Source: Bolinopsis microptera (lineage: Eukaryota > Ctenophora > Tentaculata > Lobata > Bolinopsidae). Taken from it: a stretch of DNA of 64,000 nucleotides. The stretch covers positions 20,736,837 through 20,800,836 of the forward strand of contig NC_087073.1 of NCBI RefSeq assembly GCF_026151205.1. Direction: 5' to 3'. The notes under the pieces are model-generated. The model was not told where the DNA came from, did not search any database, and saw only the letters and a program-made list of their open reading frames with translations. The translations under genes were made by a program, and so were the position numbers. Within the stretch, counting starts at the first letter, position 1. Each line of letters starts with the position of its first letter. Of this stretch, positions 3,247-58,159 are shown one piece after another.

Positions 3247-3256
3247 TGGTAGCAGG
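3247..3256 (+). promoter_or_regulatory. Copia primer-binding site (initiator tRNA-Met type)
   Basis: TTGGTAGCAG lies directly after the 5' LTR. TGGTAGCAG is the complement of the 3' end of metazoan initiator tRNA-Met (CTGCTACCA), the usual minus-strand primer. Confidence 0.75.
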
Positions 3257-3279
3257 AAGACAGCAGACTACACTCAACG

Positions 3280-3840
3280 ATGAAGAACAAAGTTCCATCC
3301 TTCAGTGGGAAGGCCAGTGAGTACAGCAAATGGAAGAAGCTAGTCACCATGTGGGCGACAGTTTGTGAAGAGGATGACACTAAGAAACAGGGTGTCTTAC
3401 TTATCATGAACATGGCTGACAAGGCGTCAGATTTACTAATTGATGAAGCAGACACTAGCGTAGCTGTAATCATTAAAAAATTGGACTGTATTTATGAAAG
3501 CGACAATGATCTTATGGACCAATTTGATCAATTTTACAGATTTAGACGCAGTAAAGATCAAACTATGAAAGAGTATATTCACTTTTACGAAAGCAAGGTT
3601 GCTAAACTGAAAACTGGTGGACTTGAAATTCCAGATTTAATTCTTTCATATCTAATTATTGAAGGAGCGCAGCTCAGTGAAAGTGACAAGCGCATCGCTA
3701 ATGCAACATGTACTAATAAAACTATGAGTGACTCCAAAAAAGCACTGTTGCGATTAACTGATTCACATGTTAACACCCCCTTAATCACGTCTCTTCCAAG
3801 ATTCAGATTAGACCCGTTGTTAAAGAGGAGCAAGAGATAA
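3280..3840 (+). CDS. Copia Gag, N-terminal part
   Basis: This 186-codon open frame starts 34 bases after the LTR and encodes the Gag of the Copia element. The start has the family-typical pattern of a short N-terminus followed by a W-containing helix (SGKASEYSKWKKLVTMW). The rest resembles the UBN2-type Gag domain (QFYRFRRSKDQTMKEYIHFYE). It stops at 3840 after an apparent one-base frame change near the CCCCC run around 3776-3780. The remaining Gag, including the zinc knuckle at about 3951-3992 (CYGCGDLNHMIRDC, CX2CX4HX4C), continues in the next frame together with Pol. Confidence 0.85.
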   Translation: MKNKVPSFSGKASEYSKWKKLVTMWATVCEEDDTKKQGVLLIMNMADKASDLLIDEADTSVAVIIKKLDCIYESDNDLMDQFDQFYRFRRSKDQTMKEYIHFYESKVAKLKTGGLEIPDLILSYLIIEGAQLSESDKRIANATCTNKTMSDSKKALLRLTDSHVNTPLITSLPRFRLDPLLKRSKR

Positions 3841-6659
3841 ACTTCTATGGGAGTCATCAAGAAGAAGAGGAGGTACTGTACAACAGAGACAGAAGAAATC
3901 AAAGACCCCCATTTAACAGAGATCAAAGAAACACGACCTACAGCCGCGAGTGTTATGGATGTGGTGACCTGAACCATATGATTAGAGACTGCCCTCATGT
4001 ACGTGAATTGCGGCAAAGAATGACTGGATCCAACAACAGATCCAACAATAATAGCAGATCCAACAATAGCAGATCCAACAACAATAGCAGAGGCTATAAT
4101 AATTATTTATGTTCTGAAGAAGCTAGCTATGATGATCAGTTTTATGAGAGCCAACAGAGCTCATCTGATGTAAGTGGGATACCTATATTCTTCCAATCTA
4201 ATATTGGAAGCGAGATTGAGACTATAATTTTAGTTGACGAAACAATCAATCAAGCAGTTCTTGATTGCGGAGCCAGTCGTACCGTATGTGGCACAGAATG
4301 GTACACAATTTACCTAGACTCACTCCCTGAAAAGGTTAGAGAACAAGTGACTGAATACCCTTCCGACACCATGTTCAGGTTTGGGGTCGGCACTATGAGA
4401 GCATCAAAGAGAGTTCTTATCCCAGTGACAATATGCAAACGTGACATCAGATTAGAAGTAGATGTGGTAGCCACGGATATTCCCCTCCTCATATCACTAC
4501 AGACTATGAAAGCTTTAGGAATGAATATTGATTTTGAGACCGATGAAGCTAAGATTGATGGTAATTCATTCTCCTTAACAACAACAAGTACAGGACATTA
4601 TGCCTTACCACTAGCAAAAGAGAGAGACCCATCCTATGTCAAAAATGTCACTTGTGAGATTATGATTGCCAATGAAGATCATACAGGCTTACTTGAAGCT
4701 AAGAAGAAAGCCCTTAAACTTCATAAGCGCTTTGCACATGCAGGTTCAGGGAGAGTAATTAAACTTCTGAAGAATGCAGATATGTCCAATAAAGAAGTTG
4801 AGAGAGAGCTGATAGTTTTAGATACCTCTTGTGACTACTGCCTTAAACATAAACGTGCTCATCTAAGACCCACAGTTGCTTTACCTCTTGCATACCAATT
4901 CAATGAATTAGTAACTATGGATCTCAAGCAGATAAATGGAACTTGGATCCTTCATTGCTGTGACTATGTAACCCGTTTCTCATCTGCACACGTCCTGATG
5001 AGCAAAGACTCAGATGAGGTGATGGAGAAACTTTTTGAATGTTGGATTTCAGTATTCGGGCCACCGGAAAAGATTCTTACAGACAACGGCGGAGAATTTG
5101 TCAATGACAAATGGCAGTCAATGTTTGCAGCTTTCAACATACTACACAAAGACACTGCTTCAGAAGCACCATTCCAGAACGGTATTTGCGAACGTCACAA
5201 TGACTTGATTGGTCACATGACTCAAAAGGTAATGGAGGATGTTAAATGCAAGATTGAAATTGCTCTTATGTGGGCTATACACGCTAAAAATTCTCTTATT
5301 AGCGTACTAGGTTTCTCACCGTACCAGTTAGTCTTTGGGAAGAATCCAAACATTCCAGGAAATAGTACCAATAAATTACCAGCAATGTCATCGTACACAT
5401 CCAGTCAAACTGTTGCAAATCACCTAAACAGCTTGAGAATGTCTAGAGAAGCTTACATCAAAGCAGAGAATGCAGAAAGAGTGGCTCGTGCGATGAGAGG
5501 ACGAGTTTATGCTGGAACACACCAAAGGTTCTTCAGTGGGGATATTGTATATTACAAGAAGAGAGACTTAAAACAATGGCAAGGACCAGGAAAAGTACTT
5601 GGACAAGATGGAGCGCAGGTATTGGTCAAAACAGGAGCCAGAACCTTAATAAAAGTCCATCCTTGTAAGCTAATCTTAAAGCAAACTGCTGAAAAACAGA
5701 TGAACTCACCAGATCAGACACAAGCAGAAGAAATTGAACAGACTAATAAGAGTCCTGAGAAACAGACAATCCCTGATAACACCGACAGTGATTCTGATGA
5801 TGATGAACCTAGACCAGTCATTCCTCCATTAGAACAGGTAACAGAAGACACTGCTGCAAGCACAGAGCATAACAACATCGAAGTTGACGCAGAGAAAGAA
5901 AATGTGCAAAATGAGACACCAGAAATACAGCCTGAGTCTATGGAGATAGAAGCAACAGTCGAGGAACCAGTCAACACAGAGGAATTCTTTGATGCTGAGG
6001 ATTCCATAGATGAGGCAAAGGACAATGGAATATCTTCCAGACTTAGATCACGCTCATCGACTCAAATGACAAAAGGAGATGTCATCTACATTAAGAACAT
6101 TGAATTCAACACATGGGTGTCATGCAGCCTAATTGAAAAAGAAGGACTGGCAGGTGAACGATGGAAAGTTGTCAACAATTCAGGTGAACGCTTCATTGTT
6201 GACCTAGAATTGGTCGAATGGTTACGAACCAAAGAGATGCCTGCTAAAAATGATGATGCAGGATTATTTGCTGATGCAATTGGAGACGAAAAGATTTGGT
6301 TAAACATAGCTAGACCATCATCCAACGAAGAAGAAATTGCAATGGAAAAGGAAATGCAACAATGGCAGAAGTTCGACGTCTACGAAGAAGTTGATAAAAT
6401 AAAATTTCCAAATCAAGAAGTGTTATCATGTCGTTGGGTTATAAATCAAAAGGAGAAACCAGAGGGTTTATGCACCAAAGCTCGCCTTGTGATAAGAGGA
6501 TTCCAGGAGTCCAATCCTCAGGTAGCTGACTCACCTACAGCTGGTAAATGTGTCACAAGAACATTCATCATGCTAGCTAACATGATATGTTTGAGTACAA
6601 ACTATTGTGCATTGACGTACGTGCTGCCTTTTTGCAGTCCAAGCCTTTGGATAGGTTGA
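3801..6659 (+). CDS. Copia Gag C-terminus, protease, integrase and start of RT
   Basis: One open frame covers the end of Gag and most of Pol. It opens with a short acidic linker and the zinc knuckle (about 3951-3992). The retropepsin active site is LDCGAS near 4263, with Cys where many Copia proteases have Ser or Thr. Next come the HHCC zinc finger of integrase (about 4725-4860) and the DDE core: MDLKQI near 4918, TDNGGEF near 5083 and NGICERHND near 5190. An acidic linker follows, then the beginning of RT (SCRWVINQKEKPEG, KARLVIRGFQE). The frame is lost about 6590 and continues in the next CDS. The first ATG in this frame is at 3978, inside the knuckle, so it is not a real start. Confidence 0.88.
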   Translation: MQIRPVVKEEQEINFYGSHQEEEEVLYNRDRRNQRPPFNRDQRNTTYSRECYGCGDLNHMIRDCPHVRELRQRMTGSNNRSNNNSRSNNSRSNNNSRGYNNYLCSEEASYDDQFYESQQSSSDVSGIPIFFQSNIGSEIETIILVDETINQAVLDCGASRTVCGTEWYTIYLDSLPEKVREQVTEYPSDTMFRFGVGTMRASKRVLIPVTICKRDIRLEVDVVATDIPLLISLQTMKALGMNIDFETDEAKIDGNSFSLTTTSTGHYALPLAKERDPSYVKNVTCEIMIANEDHTGLLEAKKKALKLHKRFAHAGSGRVIKLLKNADMSNKEVERELIVLDTSCDYCLKHKRAHLRPTVALPLAYQFNELVTMDLKQINGTWILHCCDYVTRFSSAHVLMSKDSDEVMEKLFECWISVFGPPEKILTDNGGEFVNDKWQSMFAAFNILHKDTASEAPFQNGICERHNDLIGHMTQKVMEDVKCKIEIALMWAIHAKNSLISVLGFSPYQLVFGKNPNIPGNSTNKLPAMSSYTSSQTVANHLNSLRMSREAYIKAENAERVARAMRGRVYAGTHQRFFSGDIVYYKKRDLKQWQGPGKVLGQDGAQVLVKTGARTLIKVHPCKLILKQTAEKQMNSPDQTQAEEIEQTNKSPEKQTIPDNTDSDSDDDEPRPVIPPLEQVTEDTAASTEHNNIEVDAEKENVQNETPEIQPESMEIEATVEEPVNTEEFFDAEDSIDEAKDNGISSRLRSRSSTQMTKGDVIYIKNIEFNTWVSCSLIEKEGLAGERWKVVNNSGERFIVDLELVEWLRTKEMPAKNDDAGLFADAIGDEKIWLNIARPSSNEEEIAMEKEMQQWQKFDVYEEVDKIKFPNQEVLSCRWVINQKEKPEGLCTKARLVIRGFQESNPQVADSPTAGKCVTRTFIMLANMICLSTNYCALTYVLPFCSPSLWIG

Positions 6660-7858
6660 TATTGGTTAAACCCCCAAAGGAGAAGAGAACTGATAACAAC
6701 ATGGTTTGGAGACTCAAGAAGCCTGTATATGGCCTGAATGATGCTGCCAGGGCATGGTATATGACGGTGAAAGAAGAGCTTATTCTTTATGGTTGTGTTC
6801 AGATGCCACTTGACAAGTCAGTTTTTGTGTACCAACCCAATGAAGAATTCTCGGGTTTCCTAAATGTGCATGTGGACGATTTCTTAGCGGCGGGAAATAA
6901 GGACTTCCATGAAAAAGTTTTAAGGAGATTGAAAGAGAAGTTTCAGATTGGAACAGAGGAGTACGGTGACTTCACCTATGTTGGTTGGAACATAAAACAA
7001 TCTGCTGTATCTAATAATACCGTGACTATTGATCAAATAGATTACCAAGAAACTAAAATTAGCCCTGTAAGTATAAGCTCAGGAAGGAGAAATCAACCTG
7101 ATTATGAACTGAGCGATCTTGAGAAGACTGAGTTTCAACAACTACTAGGCAAGCTTCAGTGGATAACATCTCAAAGCCGCCCTGACCTACGCTACAAAGT
7201 CCTCGAAAGCAGTATGAAAGCAGCAAAGCCTAGAGTTTCTGATTTAATAAATCTAAATGCTATTGTCAAGAAATTAAAGAAGCAAACGGTAACCATAATG
7301 CTTCCATCCTTGTCTAAAGACATCTCTCAATTAAAGATCTATGCTTATGCTGATGCTTCGCTTAATATGCTCCCTGGTAGGACATCAAGTGCACGCGGGC
7401 ACGCTATATTTCTCGTTAGTGGAGACAGTGCAGGAATTTTATCATGGTGCTCAAGAAAGATCAAAAAAGTTACCAAGACCATCAGTTATGCAGAAGCCAT
7501 GGCTCTTGGTGAATGTTTGGATGAAGCTTATCTGATACGAGAGACTATCATCACCGCTCTATGTCTATCTCAAAATAAGACAAAAGACACTGTTCCTATC
7601 ATTGGTTTAACTGACAATTTATCTGTAAAAGAGAACATCTACTCTACTAATCCATCTGTTGACTTAAAGATGAGAGTACAAGTTGCATATCTCAGAAAGA
7701 TTATAGACGATGAGGAGATAAACAAGGTTGTATGGATTCCTGATCCTCAGCAACTAGCTGACTGTCTTACCAAAAGTCCAAAAAATAAAGATCCAGTGGA
7801 AAATTTACTGGCTGTTATTCAGACTGGGAAGCTGAATATTCATCCTATTCAACACTAA
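6587..7858 (+). CDS. Copia reverse transcriptase (remainder) and RNase H
   Basis: This continues the RT in a shifted frame. Motif A is CIDVRAAFLQ; KPVYGLNDAARAWY is the hallmark Copia RT block; VHVDDFLAAG is the catalytic DD motif. RNase H follows from about 7335: AYADAS carries the first Asp, then SYAEAMAL with the Glu, LTDNLSV with the second Asp, and the C-terminal WIPDPQQLADCLTK. The stop is at 7858, about 600 bases before the 3' LTR. The overlap with the upstream frame reflects a one-base difference near 6590. Either this copy is defective or the consensus has an indel. Confidence 0.88.
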   Translation: MFEYKLLCIDVRAAFLQSKPLDRLILVKPPKEKRTDNNMVWRLKKPVYGLNDAARAWYMTVKEELILYGCVQMPLDKSVFVYQPNEEFSGFLNVHVDDFLAAGNKDFHEKVLRRLKEKFQIGTEEYGDFTYVGWNIKQSAVSNNTVTIDQIDYQETKISPVSISSGRRNQPDYELSDLEKTEFQQLLGKLQWITSQSRPDLRYKVLESSMKAAKPRVSDLINLNAIVKKLKKQTVTIMLPSLSKDISQLKIYAYADASLNMLPGRTSSARGHAIFLVSGDSAGILSWCSRKIKKVTKTISYAEAMALGECLDEAYLIRETIITALCLSQNKTKDTVPIIGLTDNLSVKENIYSTNPSVDLKMRVQVAYLRKIIDDEEINKVVWIPDPQQLADCLTKSPKNKDPVENLLAVIQTGKLNIHPIQH

Positions 7859-11480: not shown

Positions 11481-14315
11481 ATGGGAGAGCAGCCAGACAA
11501 TGTGTCTGAAAGTGCAAATGAAGAAACCACCTCACCGGCAGCAATCAGTGTGGATACAATGGAAAGGCTGAAGACATGTCCTGGGTTTGTTGAAGTTGAC
11601 CCAAGGTTATTGCAAGTTTTTGCTGACTCAATAACCATGAACAATGATGTTGGTTATTTCCTGAAGGATATAGCTTGCCAGACTGAGGAGAGTTCAATTA
11701 CAGATTTGAATGACATGATCAAGATCATCCAGGTTACCACCAACTTAATTACACTATTTGTCCTCATTATTATATATATATTTTTGGATTCAGGTGGGGA
11801 GGTGAACCAACTTTTTTGGCAACATGATTGTGGTTCTTGAGTTTGATCAGACAATTCTGGAAGCTGATTAGTTAATTAATTGCTGTCACGTGTCAACAGA
11901 ATTGTTTTGATGACTCCTCTTTGGTTTATATTATTATTACAGTTCTCACTTTTTGACTTACAGTAATAAGATTCAAAAAGCTCCACATTTACAGTATAAG
12001 TAACATCTTTCAGAATCTGCTCAAAGAGATAACTGTTGTCAAGCGCAACTTGCTATTTGCGAAACAGCTACTACATGCAGATTATGATGCAAAAGTTGGA
12101 GGTCGGGCAATGGATCTATACTGTTCAATCAATGATAGGTATTGTATTGTACTGTACTGGGGTTTTTTAGTAAAACAATTTTGGAAACAAAAATCTGGAG
12201 ACGTTATATTTTTAGGCTTGGATAAAGTTCAAGGCACAACTGCAACTGCAGCTTATAGATGTATTTGTTGTATCATGCACAATAACTAATAAAAATGTTT
12301 TTGAAATTTTCAGATTAGCTGAGCTGGAAAAATTGTATGAGGAAAGGATGAGAGTAGCTAGAAGATCTTACAAAACTCAGATGGCAGATGCATGTAAGAA
12401 GATCGCAGGTGACTATAAACGTTACTACATGAAGATGCTAGAGTTAGAAACAGGTCAGAGTGGGTCTGTGCTGCAAGAGCTCAGAGACACTATCTCAAAA
12501 CAAGGAAAGATGTTGAAGCTGCAGGAACAGAATATGTCAGCCCTGCGAACCCAGCTTCTTGAGGCAGAAAATAGGGTCCTGGATGAACATTTCTCAGTAG
12601 AGGACAGTGAGGCCAGCCTCAAGGCTGAGACTCCTCCACCTCCTCCTGAGCCTGACTTTCTTACCAACGCTATTGATCCTGATGAGCATAAAAAGGTAAA
12701 CTTTACTGAGTCTTTTTAACTTTTGAAAATTAATTACTACAAATTTTTCTTTAAATTACATAATTTCGAATTTAAACTGTTAAAATAGCCAGAATAACAA
12801 GTGTTGTTCCTTACCAAGGTTGTTGAAGAAAAAGAAAAGTTAGAAAAACGATGCTCTAGACTAGCTGATGAGGTGACTGATGTGCAGAGCAAACACAAGA
12901 GAATTGAAGCCAGGCTGAAACTTGTCAGAACTGAAGCAGAGGAAGAGAAAACAGCTTTAGAGCATGAAATCAAAGGGCTGAAAGAAGAAACTAATACTTT
13001 GAAAGATGAGAATGAGAAATTGGTGCTGAAGAGCCAGCAAGTGAAGAAGGTGGCCTTTGTGGACAGTTCTGCGTCCCCCACTCCTCCTGTCTCGCCTGCT
13101 CCAGTAGTACCAGTAGTACAGGGCAACACTGCAACTTCTGCTGAGGTTAGTTTTCTTTACTTAGAAATATTTTACCGCATGAAAATTCATTGAGCATGTT
13201 CTTTGGCTGTGTCTCAACTCTTTGTGAATGATTGTTTAGGGCCCTCTGATAAAAATTTTGAGATTGTTTAGATCAAATTATTATTGAATTTCATTTGAAG
13301 GTTATGTCTAAAACGAGCAATGTTGAGGTTAGTTTTCTTACGGAATTTCGATAGTCATAGAAAGCATGTTTGATTGTATGGTTTCTTTCTGATTTGATAA
13401 TATTGTATCTTGAGATAATTTCATTCAGTTCAATCGATTTGTTAACAATACATAATACTCTTTCGAAGTGTTGCTTTATTAACTTCAAGATTTACGAGTA
13501 ATTACATCAGATCGAAGCCCGCATTAAAGATGAGGTCCAGAAAGCTCGAACCGAAATGATGATAAAATTCAAGAAGGAAAACGAGCTCATTGCTGCACAA
13601 AGCAAAGATAGCCTCAAGGTACACATATTTTTATATTTATTTAAATGAGCTATTTGAATTATTCGCTTAAAGTATAACATATTTGTCATACGGAAAGTCT
13701 GAAATAAAAAGCTTATAATATAAGCTATATTAATTAATCTCCAATTGATAGCAATCATTTATAAATACAGGCAGAGCAAGAGAAACGACAGTATGCAGAG
13801 CGTCTTCTTCAGTCCCAACAGGATCTCAGTTCTCGGGATAGTGGCAAACTTGCCCTCAGACATTTACAGCAACTCGAGGTTATTTAAACATGAATTTGTA
13901 AATATTTGAGACTTACGTGGTATGCAATTGGTCATTAGATTACAAGATATTTTAACCATTTAATTAAAGTTTCTACTGACTAACAATATCCAACTAAAAT
14001 CAGGAAGAGCAGAGAACGGAAATAGCTCGGCTAAACAAGGAGCTGGACCGTACTACCTGTATCTACGAGAAGAAACTGTCAGTCCTGCACAGCACTATGA
14101 TAAACCTGAAGAATGAAGTGTTCATGAGGAATTTGCTGCACCGCCAAGCTGCGCAGCTCCACCACGCAACTCTATCATACGCGTCAGATTCGCCCGCAAT
14201 GACTGCGTACCTCGCACCTCACGAACACAGTCACAAGAAGTTTCCAGAGAGACTGGCTCCTTTTAAGTCTCATCCTCGTCCTCCAACCGCTTTCACAGAG
14301 GTTTGTCAGGAGTGA
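11481..14315 (+). CDS. Coiled-coil protein resembling C10orf67 (DUF4709-like)
   Basis: Seven exons were assembled by frame and GT-AG sites: 11481-11732, 12014-12138, 12314-12695, 12819-13145, 13511-13618, 13771-13878 and 14004 onward. The phases agree at every junction. The product is about 537 residues if it ends at the stop at 14313-14315, or about 566 if exon 7 splices at 14300 to 19036-19137. The N-terminus (SVDTMERLKTCPGFVEVDPR) precedes long charged heptad-rich helices (EELEK, KEKLEKRCSRLADEV, ARIKDEVQKARTEMM) and a Pro-rich insert (PPPPPEPDF). Overall length and layout fit vertebrate C10orf67, but I recognise the family only tentatively. No transmembrane or catalytic motif is seen. It is probably a structural or scaffold protein. 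Confidence 0.7.
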
Positions 14316-14443
14316 GGGGTGAGGGGTGAGGGTGAGGGTGAGGGTGAGGGGTGAGGGGTGAGGGGTGAGGGGTGAGGGGTGAGGGGTGAGGGGTGAGGGG
14401 TGAGGGTGAGGGGAGAGGGGTGAGGGGTGAGGGGTGAGGGGTG
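14313..14443. repeat. GTGAGGG minisatellite
   Basis: About 130 bp of GTGAGGG/GGTGAGG tandem units start immediately after exon 7 of the coiled-coil gene. They lie within the putative 14301-19035 intron. Confidence 0.95.
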
Positions 14444-14610
14444 ATTACAATCTGTTGACCAGTATTCGAAATTTAGTCCGTTTTAAACTATACAAACCAA
14501 AATCAGCGGATAATCTTATGGTCCTCCCTGTTCTGCTCAACTGATTCCTCATTTCTCCTTTCCTCCGGTTTTTTCATTTCCCATTTTTCCCTCTTCAGCC
14601 TAATCCTCTC

Positions 14611-17548: not shown

Positions 17549-17573
17549 CCCCCCCCCCCCCCCCCCCCCCCCC
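17549..17573. repeat. Poly(dC) tract, 25 bp
   Basis: An uninterrupted C run preceded by purine-rich GGGGGAGGGGGG. It is one of about ten such runs in the window. Confidence 0.95.
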
Positions 17574-25800: not shown

Positions 25801-28800
25801 AGGTTTTTGTTTGTTTATTTGTTTATGGAGCGTACTTGCCATAAAGGTCCATGTGGCATGATAATATCATAATCATGGGGTCTGATTATCTAAATCTTTC
25901 TTGCTATCTAATCCTCTCATGGGCCCTTTCGTCCCGTAAGTCTAAAAAGGAATTATGTATAAAATTCTTGAATTCACAAAATTTGGCCCGGTTGATAATT
26001 TGATAGGAGAAATGATGAAGGCAGTTAAACAAGTAAAGTGAAAATAATTGGCGGGCAATTTGGCCGGTATCCAATTTATGAAGAAAATTTATGCTCTGGT
26101 GTAATGGAACGGTACCGCGACAATTGACCCCCCGACAATTGACCCCCCGACAATTGACCCCCCGACAATTGACCCCCGTTAGGGTTAGGGTTAGGGTTAG
26201 GGTTAGGGTTAGAGTTAAGGTTAGGGTTAGGGTTAGGGTTAGGGTTAGGGTTAGGGTTAGGGTTAGGGTTAGGGTTAGGGTTAGGGTCCTGGGTCAGGGT
26301 CCTGGGTTAGGGTTAGGGTCAGGGTCCTGGGTCAGGGTCAGGGTTAGGGTTAGGGTTAGGGTTAGGGTTAGGGTTAGGGTTAGGGTTAGTGTTAGGGTTA
26401 GGGTTAGGGTTAGGGTCCTGGGTCAGGGTCAGGGTCAGGGTTAATTGTATTAAATTATATTGTCGGGGGGTCAATTGTCGGGGGGTTAATTGTCGGGGGG
26501 TCAATTGTCGGGGGTCAATTGTCGGGGGGTCAATTGTCGGGGGGTCAATTGTCGCCAACCCTTTAGAACATTCAGTTCATATTTGGTGGTTTAGCCTAAA
26601 ACTTACCTGGTAATCATCAAACAATAAATGTATACATTTCCCTACTGAAATCTTCTTTTACCTAGTATGTTCATTGTTCATACCTTCTCAGTAGTATCAC
26701 TAACGAACCCTCAGGTGTTACAGCTGTTTGCCAACAAGTTTACAGATTTGACAGACCTGGCTATAAGCCCGCCTCCTAACCTGCAGCACTTGGGGGTGGG
26801 GTACAATCAGCTCACTGACCTCTCTTCCTACATGTCTCCTTACTTCTGGTGGGTTCACCTCCTTCCTCATCTGTTCTTATTTAAATGTCAGACATAGATG
26901 ATGTATTTGTTGACAACTGTACTGTTCTTAGTCGTAATTTTTAAGACAGCTTATTTATTTGTCGATAACAAACAGCCAGGGTATCAAACCAATAAGTTGA
27001 AATCTTGTTGAAATGGCCAACGAAACATAACAATTGTAACTCTATTTCAGGCCGAACTTGTTGTCGCTGGATTTATCACACAACAGGATCGGTCACGTGA
27101 TTCCTACTTTACAGAGCCTGTCTCAACTTATATCTCTCCGAAACCTATCTCTCATCTCTAACCCTATCACAGTTAGTCGCACCTTCGCACCTATTTCTGA
27201 GTAGCATAGTTGGAAAATTCATTCATTTTAGTACTTTCAGTTTCTTGGGAGTTCTGAGCGGGCCTGGTTTTCTAGTTGGATTTATTTACTTTGTAAGGGT
27301 TCTGATCGGGCCAGGTTTCCTGATTTTAACTATGTTGATTGTTGACCCCTAAACTCGTATAAACAGTCAGACAGCGAATTTAAAAAAGTAGTTAATAAAC
27401 CCTACTGCTACATTGAAACTGTGAATATATAATAACTAGTGTAACCCGGCCTTCGGCCGGGATTTCACTGCCGCAGTTAAAAAGGGTAGGAGTAATTACC
27501 CGCTGAGTCAAAACCCGGATTAGGCGAGCAATTCTATTCGGAGTGCCCTCACGTATCCGATAGTATCATTAAAAGATAGTATCTTAAACAATAATCAATA
27601 GAAACTAACCCTTAACACCATGCACCACACCCGCCTATCATATTTGTGAACATGCATTACATTGTCGTATGAAAGTATGAAATCTCTCTACAGTCCAAAC
27701 AGACCGTTTGAGCTCTCCCTCCCCTAATAAGTTTATAGTACAGGGTGGCCCATAAGTGACTACCCACACGCAACCTTTTAATAACTCACGTAATTCGTCT
27801 TCAAATTGCACCAAAATTTCAGAGATTATAGATATGGGTCCAACTTAGATTTCCTGAAAGTTTTGTAAGCCACGCCCAATTACAGTGGGCGTGGCGTGAC
27901 ACTCCCTCTTTTTCACTATTGTCTTCATAAAATGAGAACGCTTTAAGCTAAGAACTCCAAATTTTTTGCACACATTTGGCTTGATAATTTAAAACTTTTC
28001 CCAAAGTTTCAAGTTCATTGTTTAAAATTTGGCTGAGTTATGACCATTTCAAAATTCATCGGATACGTGATCCGAGCACTCAGTCAGTGATCTCTGCACT
28101 TGGTTAATGGCCTGTTTGGCTCACATGCGCCGCTTGATTGGTTGCAGGGCTTGTTAGCCCTGCTAGTCACAGGTTCGTTCCTTACAATCGATAAAAAGGA
28201 ATGAACTATCCATTGAATCATCGAAAATGGTTCACTATCCTCCCTATACTGCGGAACAACGATTGTTTGTCTACCTGAACAAAGAGAATGGGGAGTTCTG
28301 CCCTCAGCTTAAACGACAATTTCAAATGAAATTCAACCGACCATCCCCTTGCCGGAAAAGCTGCTTTGATTTGCATCACAAGATCAAGTTTACTTTTTCT
28401 GCAAAAGACGAACTGCGAGGACCGAAGAAAACATCACCATGGTTGTTTGTGACGTGATGGATACACCTAAAATTGGCACCCGAAAACGAGCTCCTGCCTT
28501 AGACCTCAGCAGAACATCCCTTCAACGAATCCTAAAGCGAGATCTTTCTAACCGGGCCTATCGGATTACAAAGAAACACCAACTTTTAGACCGTGATTCC
28601 TGATTTTCCTGAAAAGGTCACGATCTGGTGCGCCATCAGTTCTCGTGGAATCCTAGGACCTTACTTTTACGAAGAATTTGGTGTTTTCCTGTCTAGCAAA
28701 GTCATTATCGGTATCCAATCAATCATGATCAGGTCGTCATCTCCTCAGTATGTTTGGTAAAGCCTAATGAACCTCATTAATACACGCTAACGCCTTACTC

Positions 28801-34559: not shown

Positions 34560-35862
34560 TTACTTGATACTTGATAAGGTCTCCTCAATCATTCGAGTGG
34601 CCTGCACCAAGGAATTGCCGCTTATGTCGTATCATCTCTCTCCAGTGCTTTCGGTTTCGATCCTGCCAACTCTCGGACCTTATCAAATACAATGTCTGGA
34701 TCTCCTGTGAATGTTACTGCGTCTTCTAGGACACAGGTTCGCCAATTCTTTCTTGGCCGCCCACGTGATCTTCGGCCGTGAGCAGGTGTCCAATCAAAAA
34801 GATACTTTGGTAGCCTGGTGTCCGGCATTCTAGAAACATGTCCAAACCAGCGAAGACGGTTGGCACTGATGTAGGTTATAACGTTATAACCGGGTTTATT
34901 CTTGCCCGCTCCAACACTTGAACATTGCTCGTCCGGTGGAACCACTTAATTCGAAGGATTCTCCTCAAACAGTTTTGATGAAAAACTTCGAAGCGATGTA
35001 GTTGCTTTGAAGTAGTGTTCCAGACTTCGCTTCCATAAAGTAATATTGTTAGAACCGCTGCAACATATATCCGCATTTTGGTGTTAGTTTGGATATTGCG
35101 ATTCTTCCAAATATTACCGAGCTGATTGAATGCTCCTGAGGCTTTCTGGATCCGTGCAGACAAGTCCCGGTCAATAGTCCCATCACTTGATTATTGATAT
35201 AATCGACCCAAGGTAAGTGAAGTTGCTGACTTGCTGGATAGCCGTGTCTCCTACTGTAATGTCCACTGTTGATGCTTCAGTATATGGCCTCTGTGATGTA
35301 TTCTTGCCGATGGCCATAACCTCTGTTTTCTTCGCATTGATTCTGAGGCCAGCCTGAGCCGCATACTTGCATAAAAGATCAGTCGTCTCCTGGAGACCGT
35401 CCTTGGTGTTGTCCATGATAGCCAAATCATCTGCATAGTCAGTATCCAGGACGACTGTATCCTGACCAGAGCTGGTGGTAGCTCTCTGCAGCACTGCCCC
35501 GTGTGACAACACTTTGTTATCCTCAGCCCGCTGCGCAGGCAGGTTGATGCAAACATTAAAGATAGGTGGACCCTGAATATCCCCCTGCCCAGAACCAGAT
35601 GTAACGTCAAACCACTCAGAGAGCTCGCCATTATGTCTGACAGCGCTGACGGTGCCGCAAAAGAATGCTTGCATTATGCGAATGTATTTACAAGGCAAGC
35701 CATAATGACATTGACTGAAAGCTTTCCAGATAAACTCCCGATTAAGTGAATCGAATGCCGCTTTAAAGTCAACAAAATTTATGTAAAGGGGGAGATTAAA
35801 CTCAATGCTGTTGTGAATAATAGTACGGAGCGAATAAATCTGATCTATGCAAGACCTGTTTT
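34560..35862 (-). mobile_element. 5'-truncated LINE with RT (RTE-like / endonuclease-RT type)
   Basis: A minus-strand LINE remnant covers RT motif A through the C-terminus in three frames. It begins abruptly near 35862, with no endonuclease. It is not the same family as the CR1 element at the left of the window. Confidence 0.8.
34622..35862 (-). pseudogene. LINE reverse transcriptase fragment, frame-broken
   Basis: Motif A is FVDFKAAFDSLNR (about 35770), then SGSGQGDIQGPPIFNVCIN as motif B, the catalytic DYADDLAIM, GLRINAKKTEVM and NFTYLGSIIS. After a break near 35180 a second frame has YGSEVWNTTSKQLHRFEVFH. After another near 34900 the third has RLRWFGHVSRMPD and GRPRKNW. Frame changes show it is dead. 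The YADD core is intact, but the N-terminal RT and the endonuclease are absent. Confidence 0.85.
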
Positions 35863-35915
35863 TTCACATAAAGGTTATCAAATTCAGTGAACATGCTAGA
35901 TAGCACGGTTTTTAT

Positions 35916-39207: not shown

Positions 39208-42200
39208 CTAGTTTCCCAGCGAGGAAGTGCCTTGACTGGCCGGATCCGGCTGATTAAGTACAGGCAAAGTGGCTGAGCTGGCGGCAGAATGTGGCTTCTC
39301 GGCAGTAGGGAAACCGGCACCTGTCTGCGAGCGGAGATTCGGCGAGAAGTAAGAGTTCTGGTAGAAAGGTTGGTAGAATGCCAGTGGTACACTCCTTCCA
39401 TACGAAAATGGAGTTGTAAATCCGTATGCAGGTGACCGTACTCCTGAAATAATATCACGTTATACTAGTGAACCATGGTGAAACACAAAACTTTAAGCTG
39501 AATCTTGAAGTAAAACTAAGGTTTTAGACTGCACAGCGTGAGTGCAAGTTGAAAGATTATCACAGATTCGTGAAGAAAGCCGTGGAATCCAGTAAGAGTT
39601 TAACAGTGCACGACACCTACCTTGAGTAAAGTTAGGAGAGTAGGGAGGGAAAAACTCGGAGAGGGGGGTTGAGGGTAAGCTATGGTACTGGTAGTCTGAG
39701 AAGGGTGTAGAGGGTTGGCTGTGGTACTGGTAACCTGGAGGGTAGAGAGGCGTTGAGGGTTGACTGGGGATGAAGTAGGATGGAGAGTACATGTTGCAAG
39801 GTGCTGCATGGTTAGCTTCCGTAACTTGCTCCTGTGAGTAGGCAGTGGTGATCTTGATATCAATAATGATAACAATATAAAATAGTGTTGAGCTGTATAA
39901 AATAGGTTAAAAGGCAATGTGCTTACAAATATGATGGGTACTTGGTATCTTACCAGATTGAGATTAAGTCTGAGCTTATTTACTCCACGATCCGACAGCA
40001 AACTCTGGGTTCTGTCACCCTCTGGTGGTTCGGGATACATAGTTGTGGAAGTTGATTTAGTGACAACTGGTGTAGGAGTGTGGTCTTGGGACGGGTAACC
40101 CCTACTGGCCAGATCTGGGGAGGCGCTGAACTCTAGAGCATGGCTGGCAGTTGGCTGTTGTTTCACCACCAGTACCTGGGTTAATATCATTAATTGAAAC
40201 GCTTACAAAAATATGGAATATTTATATAGACCGATCTGATGATAGCTTGACTCTTAAAGCGGTTTTTTAGGCCTTTAAGATAAGTATAAGTTATACTTAT
40301 CTTTAAAGGCTCAAAAAGGAAACAATTTGAACTTCTTATGCCTCAGCCAAAATAAAATCGGTTGTATCATTTGAAGTCATTGTGTGAGCCTTGCTGGGAT
40401 TTCGCACAGCAAGCAGAGCAGTCACCCTCCCAGCGAGAAAGAGAAGGCTTGCTCTTTATAAAAATACCCGTGCGAGCCGTTCAGTTGACCCAGTGTCATC
40501 CAGAATAAGTACAAAACCACAGCAACCACGGTTATAATAGTACTAACCTCTTTTCTTCGTATGCGAATGGCAGGTTTGATCAGCAACTTTCTACCGAACT
40601 TGGATTCAATGTTCTCCTGAGGGTGATGGGAGTTTAGAGACCCTATTTATTTTCTTTGAATCATCAGTTTGGAAAGAATATAATAATGGATGAGATGACG
40701 ACAGGTTAGGTGAGGGCTGAGCGGTAAGCTTCGGAGAAATGTATGGAGTACATGTAAGTATATATCTAACAAAATGAGTACAAGTTAACACTATGAGTAC
40801 ATGTTAATAATATAAATACAAGTTAATAATATGAGCACAGAAGGTAGTGGTGCGAGTACATAACAATATCAGTATAAGTTTTAAATAAGACTATAAGTTA
40901 TAAACGTTTATAACATTTATTGAATTTCATGAAAATAAAAGTAAACTAGAAACCTGAGCTAGCAGTCTCTTAGCTTCATTTTCGCTTCTAAAATCCACGA
41001 AACAATATCCCTTACTGCACCCATTAACGTCCCGTATTACCTGAAACAAGTGTTATTATAATAACTAAATCTTTACAGCACTGATTGTAGTTATCAGTTA
41101 TGCTAGCAAGTCTCTGCTATCGCGATTAGTTATAAACTTAATGAAACACTACCAGCCGTTACACGCTATACAGTCTATAATATTCTCAGTGTCCTCATAT
41201 AAAGTCAAGCAATAAAACAGGTTCAACAATCAAGCCATCTTTTCTAATTACGAACAGCAGAATGTTCAAAATTATCATCGCCAAAATTCCATGCATTTTC
41301 AACCGGACCTAAATTCAGTAAAAACTTTCAGTTCTATGATTATTGATTTCTCATTTAAGATTATAAAGTTACAAATACAAGTGTACTACTACTACTATGT
41401 CGGAGCTAAGTCCGATCTACGCCAGAAAACCCCCTCCATATATCCCTGTCCCGCATCAGGGTTCGCAGTTCCTCTTTAGAGTTTGTCCCAACTTCCTTCA
41501 GTAACATAGACAAGTAGCTTTGTCTTGGTCGGCCTTGCTGTGCTCTACCGTGCGTAGGTTCCCATAAGACTAAATCACTGGCAAGTAGCTCAGGATGTCG
41601 GATGCAGTGTCCCGCCATTTTTAATCTCCTGCTTCGTAACTTGTTTGACAGCCTTGGGAGGCTACCATACAAAGTTATATTGCTGACCTTGTCCTTCCAT
41701 GAGATACCCAGCACCATACGCAACATCTTTGTGTATGTCCCGTCCAAACTTTTCTCTTGAGCCTTTGTCAGTGTCCAGGTTTCTGATCCGTAGAGCAGTA
41801 CTGATTCACAAGCCGCTATGAACAATCTAATCTTTAGGCTCTTTGAGAGTTTGGATTTCCAGATATCCTTCAGTCTATGTAGGGCACCCCACGCTTTTCC
41901 CTTTCTAACCCTTATCTCCCTATCTGTGCTCTCAATCCAGGAGCCTAAGTAGATGAAATCATCTACATTTTCTATGGCTTCCCCGGATCGACTTTGTAGG
42001 TCGCTAGATCGATCCTCCATATTCAGTGTCATGACCTTGGTCTTGCCTTCGTTTATGTGTAGTCCCACGCTTGCTGCCGCCGATTCTACTCTGAGCAGGA
42101 ACTCGTTAGCCTTGTCCATGTCCTCAGATATAAGTGCTATATCATCTGCAAAGTCCACATCGGTGATGATCTTGGGCCCCACCTTGGACTTTTCACGTTC

Positions 42201-45200
42201 GGTGAGAAGCCTCGAATCCGTATGGGCTATACAGTAGCATGACACATGCATAGAGTAAGATTAAGGAATATGAAAACACTCGAAGGGGTTATCGTACAAT
42301 TACGGTTTATTCCGTTGGAAGTTAGAGGGTTGGCATTGTCTTTACTCAGGAGGTAGAGAGCGCTTGATTTTGACTGGGGAAATGGCTGAAGTTCAGGAAT
42401 CTGTTTGCATGTTTCCCTACGCTTGTAGCACTGTGAAGCTTGTAAGTCATAAATTCAAAAGTGATTGACTCTTGAAACTTATAAAGGCGTCTCATACAAT
42501 ATGATGGTATTGTGACCTTCCGTGAGATTAGTTGAATTATTCTCACGATTCTGACAGAATTGGTCTCGATGTGTTCGGCTTCAATGGGTTTTAGGAAACT
42601 TGTGATGTCTTGACGACTTGGCCAACTGGGGAGCCTACAGAATTCGCCAGATTAGTTTCATTGGTTATCTAATTGCCCTTCTTGGAATATTATATGACGT
42701 TAATGATTGACCATTAAGCGGTTTTTCTACCTTTAAATAAGTAAAGTTTACACTTAAAGCTCAAGGAACAATTTGATCAAGGTCGCCATTCGGTTTATCA
42801 TTGAAGTATTGGGGCTATGTTGATCGTACAGCACATGCTTTCTCCTCACAGATAATGAAGGCTTGCTTTCTGTACTATCCAACGTAAACGGTTCAGTTGC
42901 CAGTTCGTCCAATATATCAAACACACAACCACGGTATATGTACACCTCGTTGTAGCGAGAAGGCAGTGATCAAACCTTCTACCATTGATTCAATGCCTTT
43001 CCGTGGTGAGGAGTTTGCCCTTATTTTGCATAATATGATGGAGCGACCTTGGTGACTCGATTTGGATAGGGTCCAGTTACATAGCATGCTGGCCTCCATG
43101 CTTCCAAACACCCGACCCCCTCGCAAGGTGTCGAGTTTTGGCTGGCCGGGCTAAGATGCCTCGTATTGTTTTCCTCTTGAACATGACTCTTCGGTTTTGT
43201 TGGGTAGACTCAGAAGTGGAAAAAAAAAAAGAGACTAAAACCCTCAGCTTGACACCGAGAATCCAACACCGGGAGTCGCTGAGATTTTATCATCGGCACG
43301 TCTGTTCTCCTTTACAGGTTATAATAAAAATCGAAAAAGTTACACTATGATCAATTATAAGATTGTAATATTCCATGTGGTCGATCTAAGTAACTATCAG
43401 TAAGTAATGGACAAAGTAAACGGTTTTAAACTTATTGAGTTCTGTAAGCTAATCAGCTTTTGAGTTTATGAAATCCAGAACCGAGCACGTCTCTAGCTTG
43501 CATTTCCGTTAAGACTAAGCTTTACCCTTACTGACCGACTTAACTCTGTATACCGACCAAGTGTTAAACTTACATATAGCTTGCGAGACGTTATATGACG
43601 GATTCCGGCCATTTTCTTCCGGCAAATGATGAACGCGATTTGCAAAATAACATATACAACTGAAGATTTTGCGTCAAGCTTTACCTTCATTCGCTGAAAT
43701 TGTGTTTGGATATATTTTAGGTGCCCAACAGATTATCCTCTAGGCGTCAAAACCAATTTAGGTTTTACTGACCCGTTTGCACATAGGTGTAGCAGGTTCC
43801 TGCTGAATAACAATCATTATCAGCCTACAACATAGTAGCAAGTTTGTATCGGCGATTAATATAGACTAAATGAACACAAGGCTAGTCGTAGTTTAGTTAT
43901 ATTTCGTCAGTCGCCCTCTTGCTATAAGTAAAGCAATAACAACGGTTCCACATCAAATTTTCTACATTCGAACTCCTGTCATGTAGTATACCCAAATCCT
44001 GATTTTGAATACGGACCTTATTTCCAAAACATATCACCAATCCCTTTCCAGACGACAATACAAGTGTAGACATAGAGTAGAATCAACGCAGCGATGATGG
44101 TTCAACAACAATAATTAAAACGAAGAACAACGAATAGAAAACCGTTTAGTCACAGTCATCCATCTGTCTTACGGATATTCTCTTTCAAAGATTTCGTAGA
44201 AATTTATGTGATTTCATTGTTTGGATACTTATTGCGCTGTTTATGCATACGGCTGATACGGTCTTCAGGAAACAAGCTCAAGAAGATTAAAATTGGACTT
44301 TGTCGGTCGCTGACTCGCTTGGACTACTAAATATCTTGAATATGTTCGTAAATCCGTTCGCTGTACACATTCTCCCCCATTTGTAACGCAGGTGACACTT
44401 GGCAACAACAATCCTCGTCTGCAGACAATTCTTCTTCATCTTCACTTCATACTTCCTGTTCACCAGCTCCCCCCATCAAATCATTCAACTCAACATCCAC
44501 TTGAATCCCCTCCTACTGTTCCTTTTAATAACCTGAATTTGCACTGCAGACCGCGGAGGAGCTGTTTAAAAACGTCTCGCTTTGAGTACCCGAAGAAGAG
44601 CAGAACCGCAGTGAATACCGCTCCAAAGTAGCTTGCAGAGGAACATTCCATTGTTCATTCCAACAGACTGGTCGGCAACAACTTCTCCACTATCATCGCC
44701 ATCGTCAGCATTTCCTGTTTGTATTTATAAATATGTTTCTTCTACCTAAATCAAATTGAGTAGTCCTGAGCAAGTTCGACTGGTGTCTGCCTACTCTACC
44801 CTTTTTAGTACCCTGACTCTCTACTGCAAAGTGTAATGCAAGCTGTGCAGCCCGTTAATACTTTAATAGTAATACAAGAGTGTAAATTAGCAATGAATTA
44901 AAACTTAAATTACTAATTATTAATTATAAAAGCAAATATTAGCTTTTGAGGTCAATTTATTTCTGTGAACAGTCACTAGTCAGTCCTATGTAACGAATAC
45001 TCGGATAGTCGACTTATAGAATAACCACCACTTCTTACTTATAATTCAAAGAATTATTCTGTATAAAAATAATAATAATAATGATTGATTTTGGACACGA
45101 AGGGAAACACACAAATTGATAATAATAATTAAAATTAATAATTATGTACGACCGCCCACGTGCAAATCAACCGAAAAATATGAATTTGCGTAGTAACCAT

Positions 45201-47288: not shown

Positions 47289-48007
47289 CTGAGAGATTCA
47301 TTCTGTTAGATGCTGCTCGGGAAATAATACGAAGTCTTGAGAAGCAGTAATTGATAATGAAATTACACAGACGGGCTCCTTCTTGATAAGTGAAAAGAAA
47401 GAGTTGTGGGTTAAGGGTTTCCGTTGAAAACTGAAAAGTGAAAAGACCATATAATTTAAGAGGGCTGGGTTCAAGTGCATATTTTATGCATTATGACAGT
47501 AATTTTGGAGTGAGACATTTCTTAGTGTTAAATGTATCTTTCAGTTTCAGATTATTTTTAACCATGGATCATTTATTTTCCTGACAAAAACAAGGCCAAT
47601 CCGCAATCACTACACTTTTAACTTTTGAGTTTACTCATTACTGTCTACTGATTATTGATAAAAGTAAGGCAACTGTCAACTTGATAATCCACCGACCGAC
47701 GGTTCACGCACAGTAATTGGCACACGCTGGCCCGTCCCTTATGTCTCAGCTGCAGTGGCGAAACGACCGCCCCGCTTTTTTTTTCTTTTTTTAAGGATCA
47801 ATAAAATTTGGGGGGTGGCAAGAGAATTTACGGGGGGGGGGGGGGGGGGGGGGCACACGTGTATCCTGTCTGTTCCACTGAAATGGTAGATGATGCTGCC
47901 ACATTCATTTTAGTAACGAAGCGATCAGGGAATCTTATCAGGTAATCTGACTTTATAAACTGAGATTTGAGCACCCTCCTATGACCTATGTAGATTGTAG
48001 GGGTGGG
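47289..48007. other. No gene assigned upstream of the first visible RRM exon
   Basis: The start exon of the RRM gene should lie here or further right, but no ATG-bearing exon with a matching phase-0 donor is convincing. It contains a 22-bp poly-G run at 47832-47853. Confidence 0.4.
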
Positions 48008-48575
48008 CGACAATCGACCCCCCGAAAATTGACCCCTGACCATATAATTTAATACAAATCACCCTGACCCTGACCCAGGACCGTAACCCTAACTCTAACC
48101 CAAACCCTGACCCTGACCCAGGACTCTGACTCTGACCCTGACCCTGACCCTGACCCTGACGCTGACCCTGACCCTGACCCTGACCCTGACCCTGACCCTG
48201 ACCCTGACACTGACCCGATCAATTGACCCCAGTGTAATTACATGAGGATCAATTGTCGGAGGGTCAATTGTCGTACTATTACTAAGTCCTAGATTTCGCG
48301 ACAATTGACCCCAGTGTAATTACTAGGGGGTCAATTGTCGGGGGGTCAACTGTCGGGGGTCAATTGTCGGGGGGGGGGGGGGGGGGGGGGGGGGGGGTCA
48401 ACTGTCGGGGGGTCAACTGTCGGGGGGTCAACTGTCGGGGGGTCAATTGTCGGGGGGTCAACTGTCGGGGGTCAATTGTCGGGGGGGTCAGCTGTCGGGG
48501 GGTCAACTGTCGGGGGGTCAACTGTCGGGGGGTCAATAATTGTCGGGGGGTCAACTGTCGGGGGGTCAATTGTCG
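48008..48575. mobile_element. Telomere-like element bounded by inverted CAATTG boxes (copy 2)
   Basis: Inverted orientation relative to 26118-26554. It begins GGGTGGGCGACAATCGACCC, contains ATATAATTTAATAC as in copy 1, then about 150 bp of CCCTGA repeats (TCAGGG on the other strand). A partial internal duplication (GACCCCAGTGTAATTAC twice) follows, then about a dozen GGGGGGTCAACTGTC/GGGTCAATTGTC boxes with a 29-bp G run (48369-48397). Flanking TA on both sides (GTA|GGGG and CCC|TA) is a possible target duplication. Confidence 0.85.
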
Positions 48576-49341
48576 CTGTACCCTATAGTATCTAACGTAC
48601 AGTACGTATACTACACAACTTGAACTAACCTGTGTGATGATATAAAAACAACAATAATAATCGTGCTGCTTTTATGTTTAAAGCTTAATTAATATTAATA
48701 ACCTCATTAAGTTTAACTTTTTTTAACCAACCTGTTGGTCGTAATCTGACATCATAACGAAACCTCAGAAGGAGAAGTAAAAACGGTAAAAGGAGCAAAG
48801 AATGTGCAATAAGTCCGATGTAAATGGCAAAAGGGGCCGGGTGTAGATGGGGTCAAATTAAAAAGGAGATATAGTAACGGGCGATAGTTGAAAACTAGTC
48901 GGAATGTAAACTCACAGGTTAATTGTCTTAAAGGGTATCAAATATGTTACCTCGGCAGGATATCATGCGAAAGTTGCCGGTTAGCTCTGTGATCGGCCAG
49001 TTTGTAGGACACGTGACCATGGCAACACACTGCAGATATCAGATTGTCTAGACAGATCACGCGTGTATATAAAAATACCGTGGGAAACCCTGAAATTGGA
49101 AACGGGCTCGATTATAGATAGTAATATTGATGCAGTCGGCCTTTATCAGTTTATGTAAGACTATATATAAGTGCGCGTTACGCCGCACGTGTGTGTAGCT
49201 CAGCTAAAATGAAATTATGTTGCTATTTTGGCATGTATGTCATATGTGATGTATTTGTTCTTAATACACTCAGTTAATGTTAACGTGAGAGAATATCTTA
49301 ATTTTCCAAGTTCAAGCTACTCATTATTTGTGAAGGGTTAA

Positions 49342-49385
<44 letters not shown>
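49342..49385. repeat. Poly(dG) tract, about 44 bp
   Basis: An uninterrupted G run, the longest in the window. It lies 20 bases before the hairpin at 49405. Confidence 0.95.
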
Positions 49386-50634: not shown

Positions 50635-51078
50635 CGCTCACGCTTACGTACGATTCTTTAGGAGGGGAGCTCTTTTTTTTGGACCATTGCATTGTTGTTA
50701 TTCAAATTTGTTTATTTATTCGAAGAATAAATAAAATATCTAAAAAAAGTGAGATAAAATATACAGTGCACTCAGCACATCAAAATGATAATAAAATTTT
50801 TTGAGCGAGGGCAGCACAATTTATTCAAACCAGTGGCATGTTATTTATCGTATTTTATTTCACGCTCACGCTTACGTACGATTCTTTAGGAGGGGAGCTC
50901 TTTTTTGGACCATTGCATTGTTGTTATTCAAATTTGTTTATTTATTCGAAGAATAAATAAAATATCTAAAATAAGTGAGATAAAATATACAGTGCACTCA
51001 GCGCATCAAAATGATAATAATATTTCTTGAGCGAGGGCAGCACAATTTATTCAAACCAGTATTTATCGTATTTTATTT
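50635..51078 (+). repeat. Tandem duplication of about 220 bp upstream of the receptor gene
   Basis: Unit 1 (50635-50862) and unit 2 (50863-51078) both run from CGCTCACGCTTACGTACG to ATTTATCGTATTTTATTT. They differ by a few substitutions and by short indels (the T run, and GCATGTT missing in unit 2). Unit 2 ends about 55 bp before the receptor start codon. Confidence 0.95.
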
Positions 51079-57770: not shown

Positions 57771-58125
57771 AAATTGAGATGCAATTTCTTTCACGTGAAC
57801 AGTCCTAATTACAGTCTGAAATGATTAATACATGAGAGGAAATATAAAAAACTGCCCTGGCCCTATACTTGAATCAACTGTATCCGTGTATCGTCCTTAT
57901 ATAGAGTTTTCCCGTAAAATTTAACCTATTTATGATGTCTTATCATTTTGTGACGATGTTTACATCAACTGCCCTATAATACTTGTATCATAATTGTTAG
58001 ATTGACCTAATCTACTATATTTTAGACCAAAAATCCTAATTGTGACATTTTTTACATTATAGTGCCTAAAAGCAATACATTTTATTTCTGAGCAGTGCAT
58101 ATAATGGGAGTATGGGTCACGGGCC

Positions 58126-58159
<34 letters not shown>

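Follow-up and report, generated by a model that had tools for sequence, protein, structure and literature searches.

We analysed a stretch of 64,000 nt from the ctenophore Bolinopsis microptera (in full referred to as the window, with positions counted from its first letter) and focused on an array of telomere-like repeats that is enclosed by inverted arms of an iterated 15-bp box. With a probability of roughly 0.88 we consider this unit (copy 1, full extent 26111–26561) to be a non-autonomous member of a foldback-type DNA transposon family of the Mutator superfamily (Mutator-like elements, MULEs). Both the mobile nature of the unit and the Mutator assignment are well supported by the shared ends, the target site duplications (TSDs) and a transposase-bearing relative described below. 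The mobile family is of a known kind; its telomere-type core is the new part. The two units found in the window are composed as follows:

26111–26117, plus strand: left terminus GGTACCG of copy 1, which adjoins the duplication in copies with intact TSDs
26118–26177, plus strand: left arm of copy 1, four exact 15-bp boxes CGACAATTGACCCCC
26178–26440, plus strand: core array of copy 1, with TTAGGG, TCAGGG and TCCTGGG units
26441–26465, plus strand: right AT spacer TTAATTGTATTAAATTATATTGTCG of copy 1, common to the transposase-bearing copy (22 of 25 bases identical in L096)
26466–26554, minus strand: right arm of copy 1, six inverted boxes at a spacing of 14–15 bp
26555–26561, plus strand: right terminus CCAACCC of copy 1 (usual form CCCACCC)
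48001–48582, minus strand: copy 2, reversed and more diverged, with GGGTGGG at 48001, boxes, a CCCTGA array (48061–48216), left-arm modules and CTGTACC (48576–48582)

A reading made earlier from the sequence alone had described four exact boxes, repeats, an AT spacer and inverted boxes in this order, and this order is present in the window. Some details had to be corrected. The inverted boxes number six instead of about seven (five are exact and one has 1 mismatch), and the unit, given as 26118–26554, extends by 7 bp more on each side (GGTACCG and CCAACCC). The palindrome CAATTG lies within every box but not at its centre. TTAGGG is indeed the main unit of the array (29 of 40 units), but it is mixed with TCAGGG (7 units) and TCCTGGG (4 units). 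The left arm of copy 1 is devoid of the inner modules (ATGTAATTACAC... and CGAAATCTAGGG...TAGTA) found in most sampled regions. Allowing at most 2 mismatches, we counted 29 boxes in the window compared to 0.05 expected from dinucleotide shuffles (29 was reached in 0 of 100 shuffles), and these boxes group into the two units listed above.

Ends, target duplications and layout of the family

Genome-wide searches covered 264.65 Mb, and positions are known among the matches listed (about 100 places for each search), which lie on the first contigs. The exact box CGACAATTGACCCCC was found 2,670 times, the left-end 16-mer GGTACCGCGACAATTG 224 times and the right-end 16-mer CAATTGTCGCCCACCC 222 times, while the right AT spacer gave 138 matches with at most 1 mismatch; each of the four reversed controls gave 0. 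For the left-end 16-mer with at most 2 mismatches we observed 470 occurrences versus 102 for the control. From these counts of ends, boxes and spacer, a family of a few hundred copies is suggested, and it is spread over many contigs. Among the exact left ends listed on contigs C1–C5, 55 of 99 are followed on the same strand by an exact right end at a distance of at most 10 kb, whereas the control pairings of these 99 left ends gave 0 on the opposite strand and 1 upstream. The length of the paired units ranges from 54 to 6,568 bp with a median of 641 bp. At the lower limit there are units of just 54–60 bp, which consist of two exact ends and little else (C4:14234139, C5:5706672 and C3:19164579), and the longest unit with two exact ends (C3:17234097–17240664, 6,568 bp) contains no listed Merlin, hAT or MULE match.

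The ends next to the TSDs are asymmetric motifs of 7 bp, GGTACCG on the left and CCCACCC on the right. In a first pass comprising 29 two-ended copies, an exact 8-bp TSD was observed in 14 of them compared to 0 of 812 in a swapped-flank control; exact matches of 9 bp were found three times, and lengths of 4–7 and 10–12 bp gave none. A second pass with looser ends yielded 51 copies, whose 15-bp left flanks fall into 30 distinct sequences. Since some copies ride in other repeats, TSDs were counted per distinct site, and 16 of the 30 sites were exact at 8 or 9 bp (control 0/870). Two sites (L022 and L042), which were mispaired in the second pass but exact in the first, bring the combined total to 18 of 30 distinct sites, 16 of them with 8 bp and 2 with 9 bp; the L054 group and L056, counted here as two sites, appear to be one duplicated site. 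The duplicated sequences are each different and for the most part AT-rich. The sequence-only reading had suspected a mobile unit and had named shared boundaries between copies, consensus ends and target duplications as what a genome search should reveal; all of these were found among the dispersed copies.

The sampled regions of the genome (62 after merging, 280,907 bp) were, except for the window, all chosen for a box, a left end or the spacer. From the left, the family order is GGTACCG, boxes, modules (in many copies), ATGTAATTACACTGGGGTCAATTGATCGGG, the array, the spacer TTAATTGTATTAAATTATATTGTCG (in many copies), reverse boxes and CCCACCC. Many copies contain one or more modules composed of TATGTAATTACAC, a reverse box and CGAAATCTAGGGTTTAGTA. 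The left-arm module is present in 52 and the spacer in 40 of the 62 regions, with reversed controls of 0. Neighbouring boxes are spaced by 15 bp in 297, by 14 bp in 63 and by 16 bp in 15 cases. This is a foldback-type layout: the arms are inverted, consist of iterated short repeats and vary in box number between copies.

The transposase-bearing copy on contig C3

The autonomous partner for which the sequence-only reading had proposed to search has a counterpart on contig C3, where a transposase-bearing copy with the same arms was found. A MULE domain (PF10551; 57.8 bits, E 2.8e-13) at C3:14096309–14096587 on the minus strand lies in an open frame of 499 aa that ends near 14095750. About 220 bp further on we found ATTATTGTATTAAATTACATTGTCG, which agrees with the spacer of the array copies in 22 of 25 bases, followed by 11 boxes (10 exact and 1 with one mismatch) and CCCACCC; the right flank then begins with ATAAAAAC. 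An upstream piece (14097420–14097700) contains AATTACACTGGGGTCAATTGTCGCGAAATATAGGGCTTAGTA, two exact boxes and GATGTAATTTCACTG, and then non-box sequence on the gene side. AATTACACTGGGGTCAATTGTCGCGAAATATAGGGCTTAGTA differs from the left-arm module by 1 mismatch in 42; the left module in L097 was checked separately, outside the scripted scoring, since the piece starts within the module. Two or more adjacent TNNGGG units were observed in neither piece of the partner, and a Pfam search with the 186-aa C-terminal piece of its frame gave no family. On the parts read, the same arms therefore enclose either a MULE gene or an array. Because the MULE frame lies between the same arms, we assign the family to the Mutator superfamily, foldback type.

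Several observations weigh against this assignment. Our reading of the partner comprises two separate pieces (1,031 and 281 bp), so that 14096311–14097419 with the middle of the open reading frame, the left terminus and the left TSD fall outside the parts read. The genome has 88 MULE matches; of the 38 on C1–C5, a single one has a listed end at a distance of 5 kb or less, where 0.46 would be expected by chance (P 0.37). The chance expectation for a right end on the same strand no more than 1,003 bp from a MULE match is 0.015, a value computed post hoc. As the adjacency alone is weak, it is the shared spacer and arms that carry the argument for the partner. Furthermore, 12 of the 30 distinct sites have no exact TSD. 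The flanks of copy 1 agree in 5 of 8 bases and those of copy 2 in 1 of 8 (5 of 9 at 9 bp), so that no convincing TSD was found for copy 2 and neither window copy has a clear one; for this reason, both are probably old or rearranged. Finally, the MULE model does not account for the TNNGGG-type arrays in the core.

The core array, rival explanations and secondary spread

The sample, which was picked on boxes and ends, contains 66 clusters: 54 with boxes and array, 12 with boxes only and 0 with array only. The 12 box-only clusters are not 12 array-less copies, as four of them are single box-like matches, one is a fragment of the copy in L022, and two others (L017 and L023) contain a few TTAGGG-like units under the threshold of 3 units. 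In all 54 clusters with an array the polarity is the same, the strand being G-rich when read from GGTACCG towards CCCACCC, although these clusters are not all independent (18 copies sit in two amplified repeats). Summed over the 54 clusters we counted 1939 TCAGGG, 363 TTAGGG, 202 TCCTGGG, 78 TTGGGG and 44 TCGGGG units, and with TCAGGG outnumbering TTAGGG to this extent the description of the array as strictly telomeric has to be given up. TCAGGG is the commonest unit in 45 of the 54 clusters and TTAGGG in 5; TTAGGG is the majority unit in two of them (L022 and window copy 1) and absent in seven. The longest pure tracts in the sample comprise 318 units of TCAGGG, 23 of TTGGGG, 22 of TCCTGGG, 20 of TCGGGG and 19 of TTAGGG. 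Outside the sample, a pure tract of 77 TTAGGG units (C2:17218402–17218863) lies inside a copy (C2:17217525–17219179) between its left end and right spacer. One copy (L042) has boxes and modules but no array, and since its TSD is exact, the array is dispensable for the layout; another copy without array (L048) has an imperfect TSD.

These data bear on another possible origin of the core alone: chromosome ends, or the action of telomerase, might have supplied the array, which the transposon would then have carried along. The pure TTAGGG tracts inside copies, such as the one of 77 units, fit this possibility, as do the predominance of TTAGGG in window copy 1 and its rank as the most frequent unit after the left junction (20 of 47 matches at the junction, a set that includes box modules in addition to array starts). 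However, the other units form long pure tracts too, TCAGGG is commonest in most clusters, and the uniform polarity speaks against repeated capture. With regard to TTAGGG as the putative telomere repeat of this animal, the matches listed include no tract of 10 units at the start of C2 or at the two ends of C1, and no tract of 33 units at the start of C3 or at the ends of C1 and C2. We regard a telomeric or telomerase-made origin of the core as possible but unlikely. From the fixed polarity, one inherited core is favoured over repeated capture; the simplest account would be that this core was changed by slippage and unequal exchange, and we regard the array, prone to slippage, as most likely a passenger. 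As a separate observation, a very long pure TTAGGG tract is located at C3:21176767–21177210 and beyond, about 107 kb from the end of C3. The sequence-only reading had argued that the structure is no scar of a telomere fusion or of break repair, and we agree. Long pure TTAGGG arrays without a box within about 120 bp downstream do exist at C1:17115161 and C2:2365638 (flanks L093 and L094, read on the downstream side), from which we conclude that ordinary interstitial arrays probably coexist with the transposon-borne ones. For the box-bounded units, however, an origin by fusion, break-repair insertion or as ordinary satellite is refuted by the shared ends, the duplications, the dispersion over many contigs and the coding relative, and we give it practically no credence.

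With regard to the enzyme that moves the unit, a Merlin-type miniature inverted-repeat transposable element (MITE), with GG at both ends, 8- or 9-bp TSDs and mobilization by the Merlin transposases of this genome, was for a time our leading class. The ends GGTACCG and GGGTGGG and the lengths of the TSDs fit the published description of Merlin (PMC8101967), and we found 58 genome matches of Merlin (PF12762), several of them with open frames of 318–337 aa. Nevertheless, all 28 matches on C1–C5 are more than 10 kb away from the listed ends, no box and no such terminus occur in about 690 bp of sequence on the 3' side of four copies, and it is the MULE copy that carries the same arms as the family; the Merlin class was dropped on these grounds and appears very improbable. 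In the 3' flanks of two Merlin genes (L090 and L092) we observed iterated repeats (TGCCCGAGG-like and TGTTGTCTTAA-like), so that several of the transposon classes present here may share the feature of iterated arms. Slightly less probable still is a foldback unit moved by a hAT transposase, which would produce an 8-bp TSD. For hAT (150 scored of 365 candidates), 5 of 61 matches on C1–C5 lie within 5 kb of a listed end, where 0.77 are expected (P 0.0015). However, the two of these five sites that were read (L041 and L043) represent one old insertion of the unit into a hAT gene, and hAT was accordingly dropped as the mover. There the hAT element surrounds the box unit and has 8-bp TSDs of its own (CTTATGAG and TTTGTAAG), whereas the unit inside has the TSD CTATCCGA. 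The ends of hAT-type elements read CA..., and this one ends in CAGGGGTCGACC and GGTCGACCCTTG; the ends of the box unit start with GG, unlike those of hAT. For P element and KDZ (Zisupton) transposases (PF21787 and PF18758) no genome match was obtained, and the search controls were equally without a match.

Some copies of the proposed MULE family have spread further as parts of other repeats. The large repeat R1 carries copies in 12 loci (L013, L028, L044, L068, L070, L074, L076, L080, L081, L083, L085 and L087), which are about 93–100% alike in the longer matched pieces and show a sharp left edge CTTCACATAGCCATG in the 9 loci inspected; it holds one old insertion of the box unit with the TSD GTCATTTA. 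The length of the array varies among R1 copies that are otherwise up to 99.9% alike, which provides a natural test of array instability. A Penelope-like reverse transcriptase assigned to R1 by eye was not supported by Pfam. A second repeat, R2, carries copies in 6 loci. The hAT element in L041 and L043 has subterminal CCGAGG repeats and a transposase gene interrupted by the box unit, and as 16 PF05699 matches all begin at profile position 31, about 16 copies of this composite are suggested. The left arm of the copy at C1:5113729 (L022) harbours another, nested MITE-like unit. This nested unit has the ends GGGGGTGATGCA and TGCATCACCCCC, iterated TGTCAATTAA motifs and GTAATAAC (8 bp) on both flanks, and its GTCAATT motif resembles the box.

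Within the window, copy 1 lies between leucine-rich-repeat exons recognized by eye (about 25.2–25.8 kb and 26.65–27.2 kb) and thus probably sits in an intron. Pure runs of G or C of 22–44 bases occur at 17549–17573, 47832–47853, 48369–48397, 49342–49385 and 58129–58158, and in copy 2 the run at 48369–48397 falls among the boxes of the left arm. At 14308–14444, the G-rich heptamer AGGGGTG is repeated about 20 times, and no box arms accompany it. By eye we further recognized Copia-like gag-pol frames (3253–7858) and reverse transcriptase frames similar to long interspersed nuclear elements (976–2544, 35183–35863 and 41406–42260). A unit of 226 bp is repeated in tandem at 50635–51060 (1.9 copies), and one of 315 bp at 57165–57832 (2.1 copies).

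Relation to known elements and proposed mechanism

The sequence-only reading had known of no family with such a layout, but this layout has been published for Tm1, a Mutator/Foldback family of Meloidogyne (PMC3169594). In Tm1, the inverted repeat is flanked by two different 7-bp motifs (A1 CGGTTAA and A2 CCTACCC), the arms consist of a variable number of 13–15-bp tandem repeats, and the TSDs measure 8–10 bp; many of its copies are MITE-like and few encode the transposase, a MULE protein of 496 aa of the Phantom subclass (PMC3169594). The box family matches this plan on every testable point: asymmetric 7-bp ends, arms of iterated repeats, the range of TSD lengths and a MITE-like majority are common to both (PMC3169594). 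The open frame of 499 aa found here compares to a transposase of 496 aa in Tm1, and the right motif CCCACCC is identical to A2 in 6 of 7 bases. In contrast, the left motif is dissimilar (5–6 of 7 bases differ), the repeat unit is CGACAATTGACCCCC here and CGATTCAGTATCCGC in Tm1, and the TSD is mostly 8 bp here but 9 bp in Tm1. Several hundred copies here contrast with 39 and 22 in Tm1, for which no telomere-type core is reported in the text consulted (PMC3169594). Compared by description, the Phantom subclass of Mutator has a MULE transposase and, in some members, foldback-like arms (PMC3169594). A FLYWCH zinc finger and close transposase homology are the protein marks of the Tm1-like and Phantom group. 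Tetris, a foldback element of Drosophila virilis, likewise combines foldback arms, TSDs of 8–10 bp, a variable non-coding middle and a link to satellite DNA, but in the available portion of its description no telomere-type middle is reported and no transposase copy was found (PMC4079207). In listings of open-licence papers we found no published element with the combination seen in the box family.

By description, the TU elements of sea urchin are also alike, being foldback elements with tandem short repeats in the arms and duplications of 8 bp. We know of no transposase of the terminal-inverted-repeat type, or TSD of this kind, in the Helentron class. The Cg_HINE Helentrons of oyster resemble the box family as non-autonomous DNA elements with a central tandem array, but this array is not termed telomere-like in the sections consulted (PMC7492417). 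The MoTeR telomeric retrotransposons are mobile DNA with telomere-like variant repeats, TTCGGG(TTTGGG)n; they are, however, retrotransposons inserted in telomeres and not a DNA transposon at internal sites (PMC7367193). In Galileo, the repeats of the long arms are transposase-binding sites (PMC3688188). As Galileo is a P-type element, binding of the boxes by a MULE transposase is an analogy.

On this analogy, a MULE transposase from full copies would bind the iterated boxes in both arms and may cut at the 7-bp ends, so that the unit would insert with the 8-bp, sometimes 9-bp, target duplication that we observed. On the readable parts of most sampled copies, the TNNGGG-type tandem array occupies the place of the MULE gene between the same arm modules. 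While its polarity stays fixed, slippage and unequal exchange probably lengthen and alter the array. The array would be carried passively and would therefore seed telomere-like DNA at internal sites, and some copies have multiplied further after landing in other repeats, including a hAT transposon. A more far-reaching version, which we consider doubtful, is that the MULE family exchanged its transposase gene for genuine telomeric DNA and that its derivatives plant polarized telomere repeats at hundreds of internal sites. In that case selection may maintain the array as a benefit to the element, which could arise, for instance, from G-quadruplexes or from late replication. If telomeric DNA was indeed taken up, the planted repeats may bind telomere proteins or telomerase, form fragile sites or seed new chromosome ends.

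Reviews have proposed that transposable elements disperse interstitial telomeric repeats (PMC6410037; PMC9693754). With the proposed MULE family, interstitial telomere-like arrays are tied to a defined DNA transposon that has ends, duplications and a transposase-bearing relative, and all sampled copies share one array polarity. This family offers a testable route to interstitial telomere-like DNA besides fusion or break repair, and with TTAGGG, TCAGGG, TTGGGG, TCGGGG and TCCTGGG it presents a natural series of unit variants in one setting. Before interstitial arrays in such genomes are read as fusion scars, they need to be checked for box arms.

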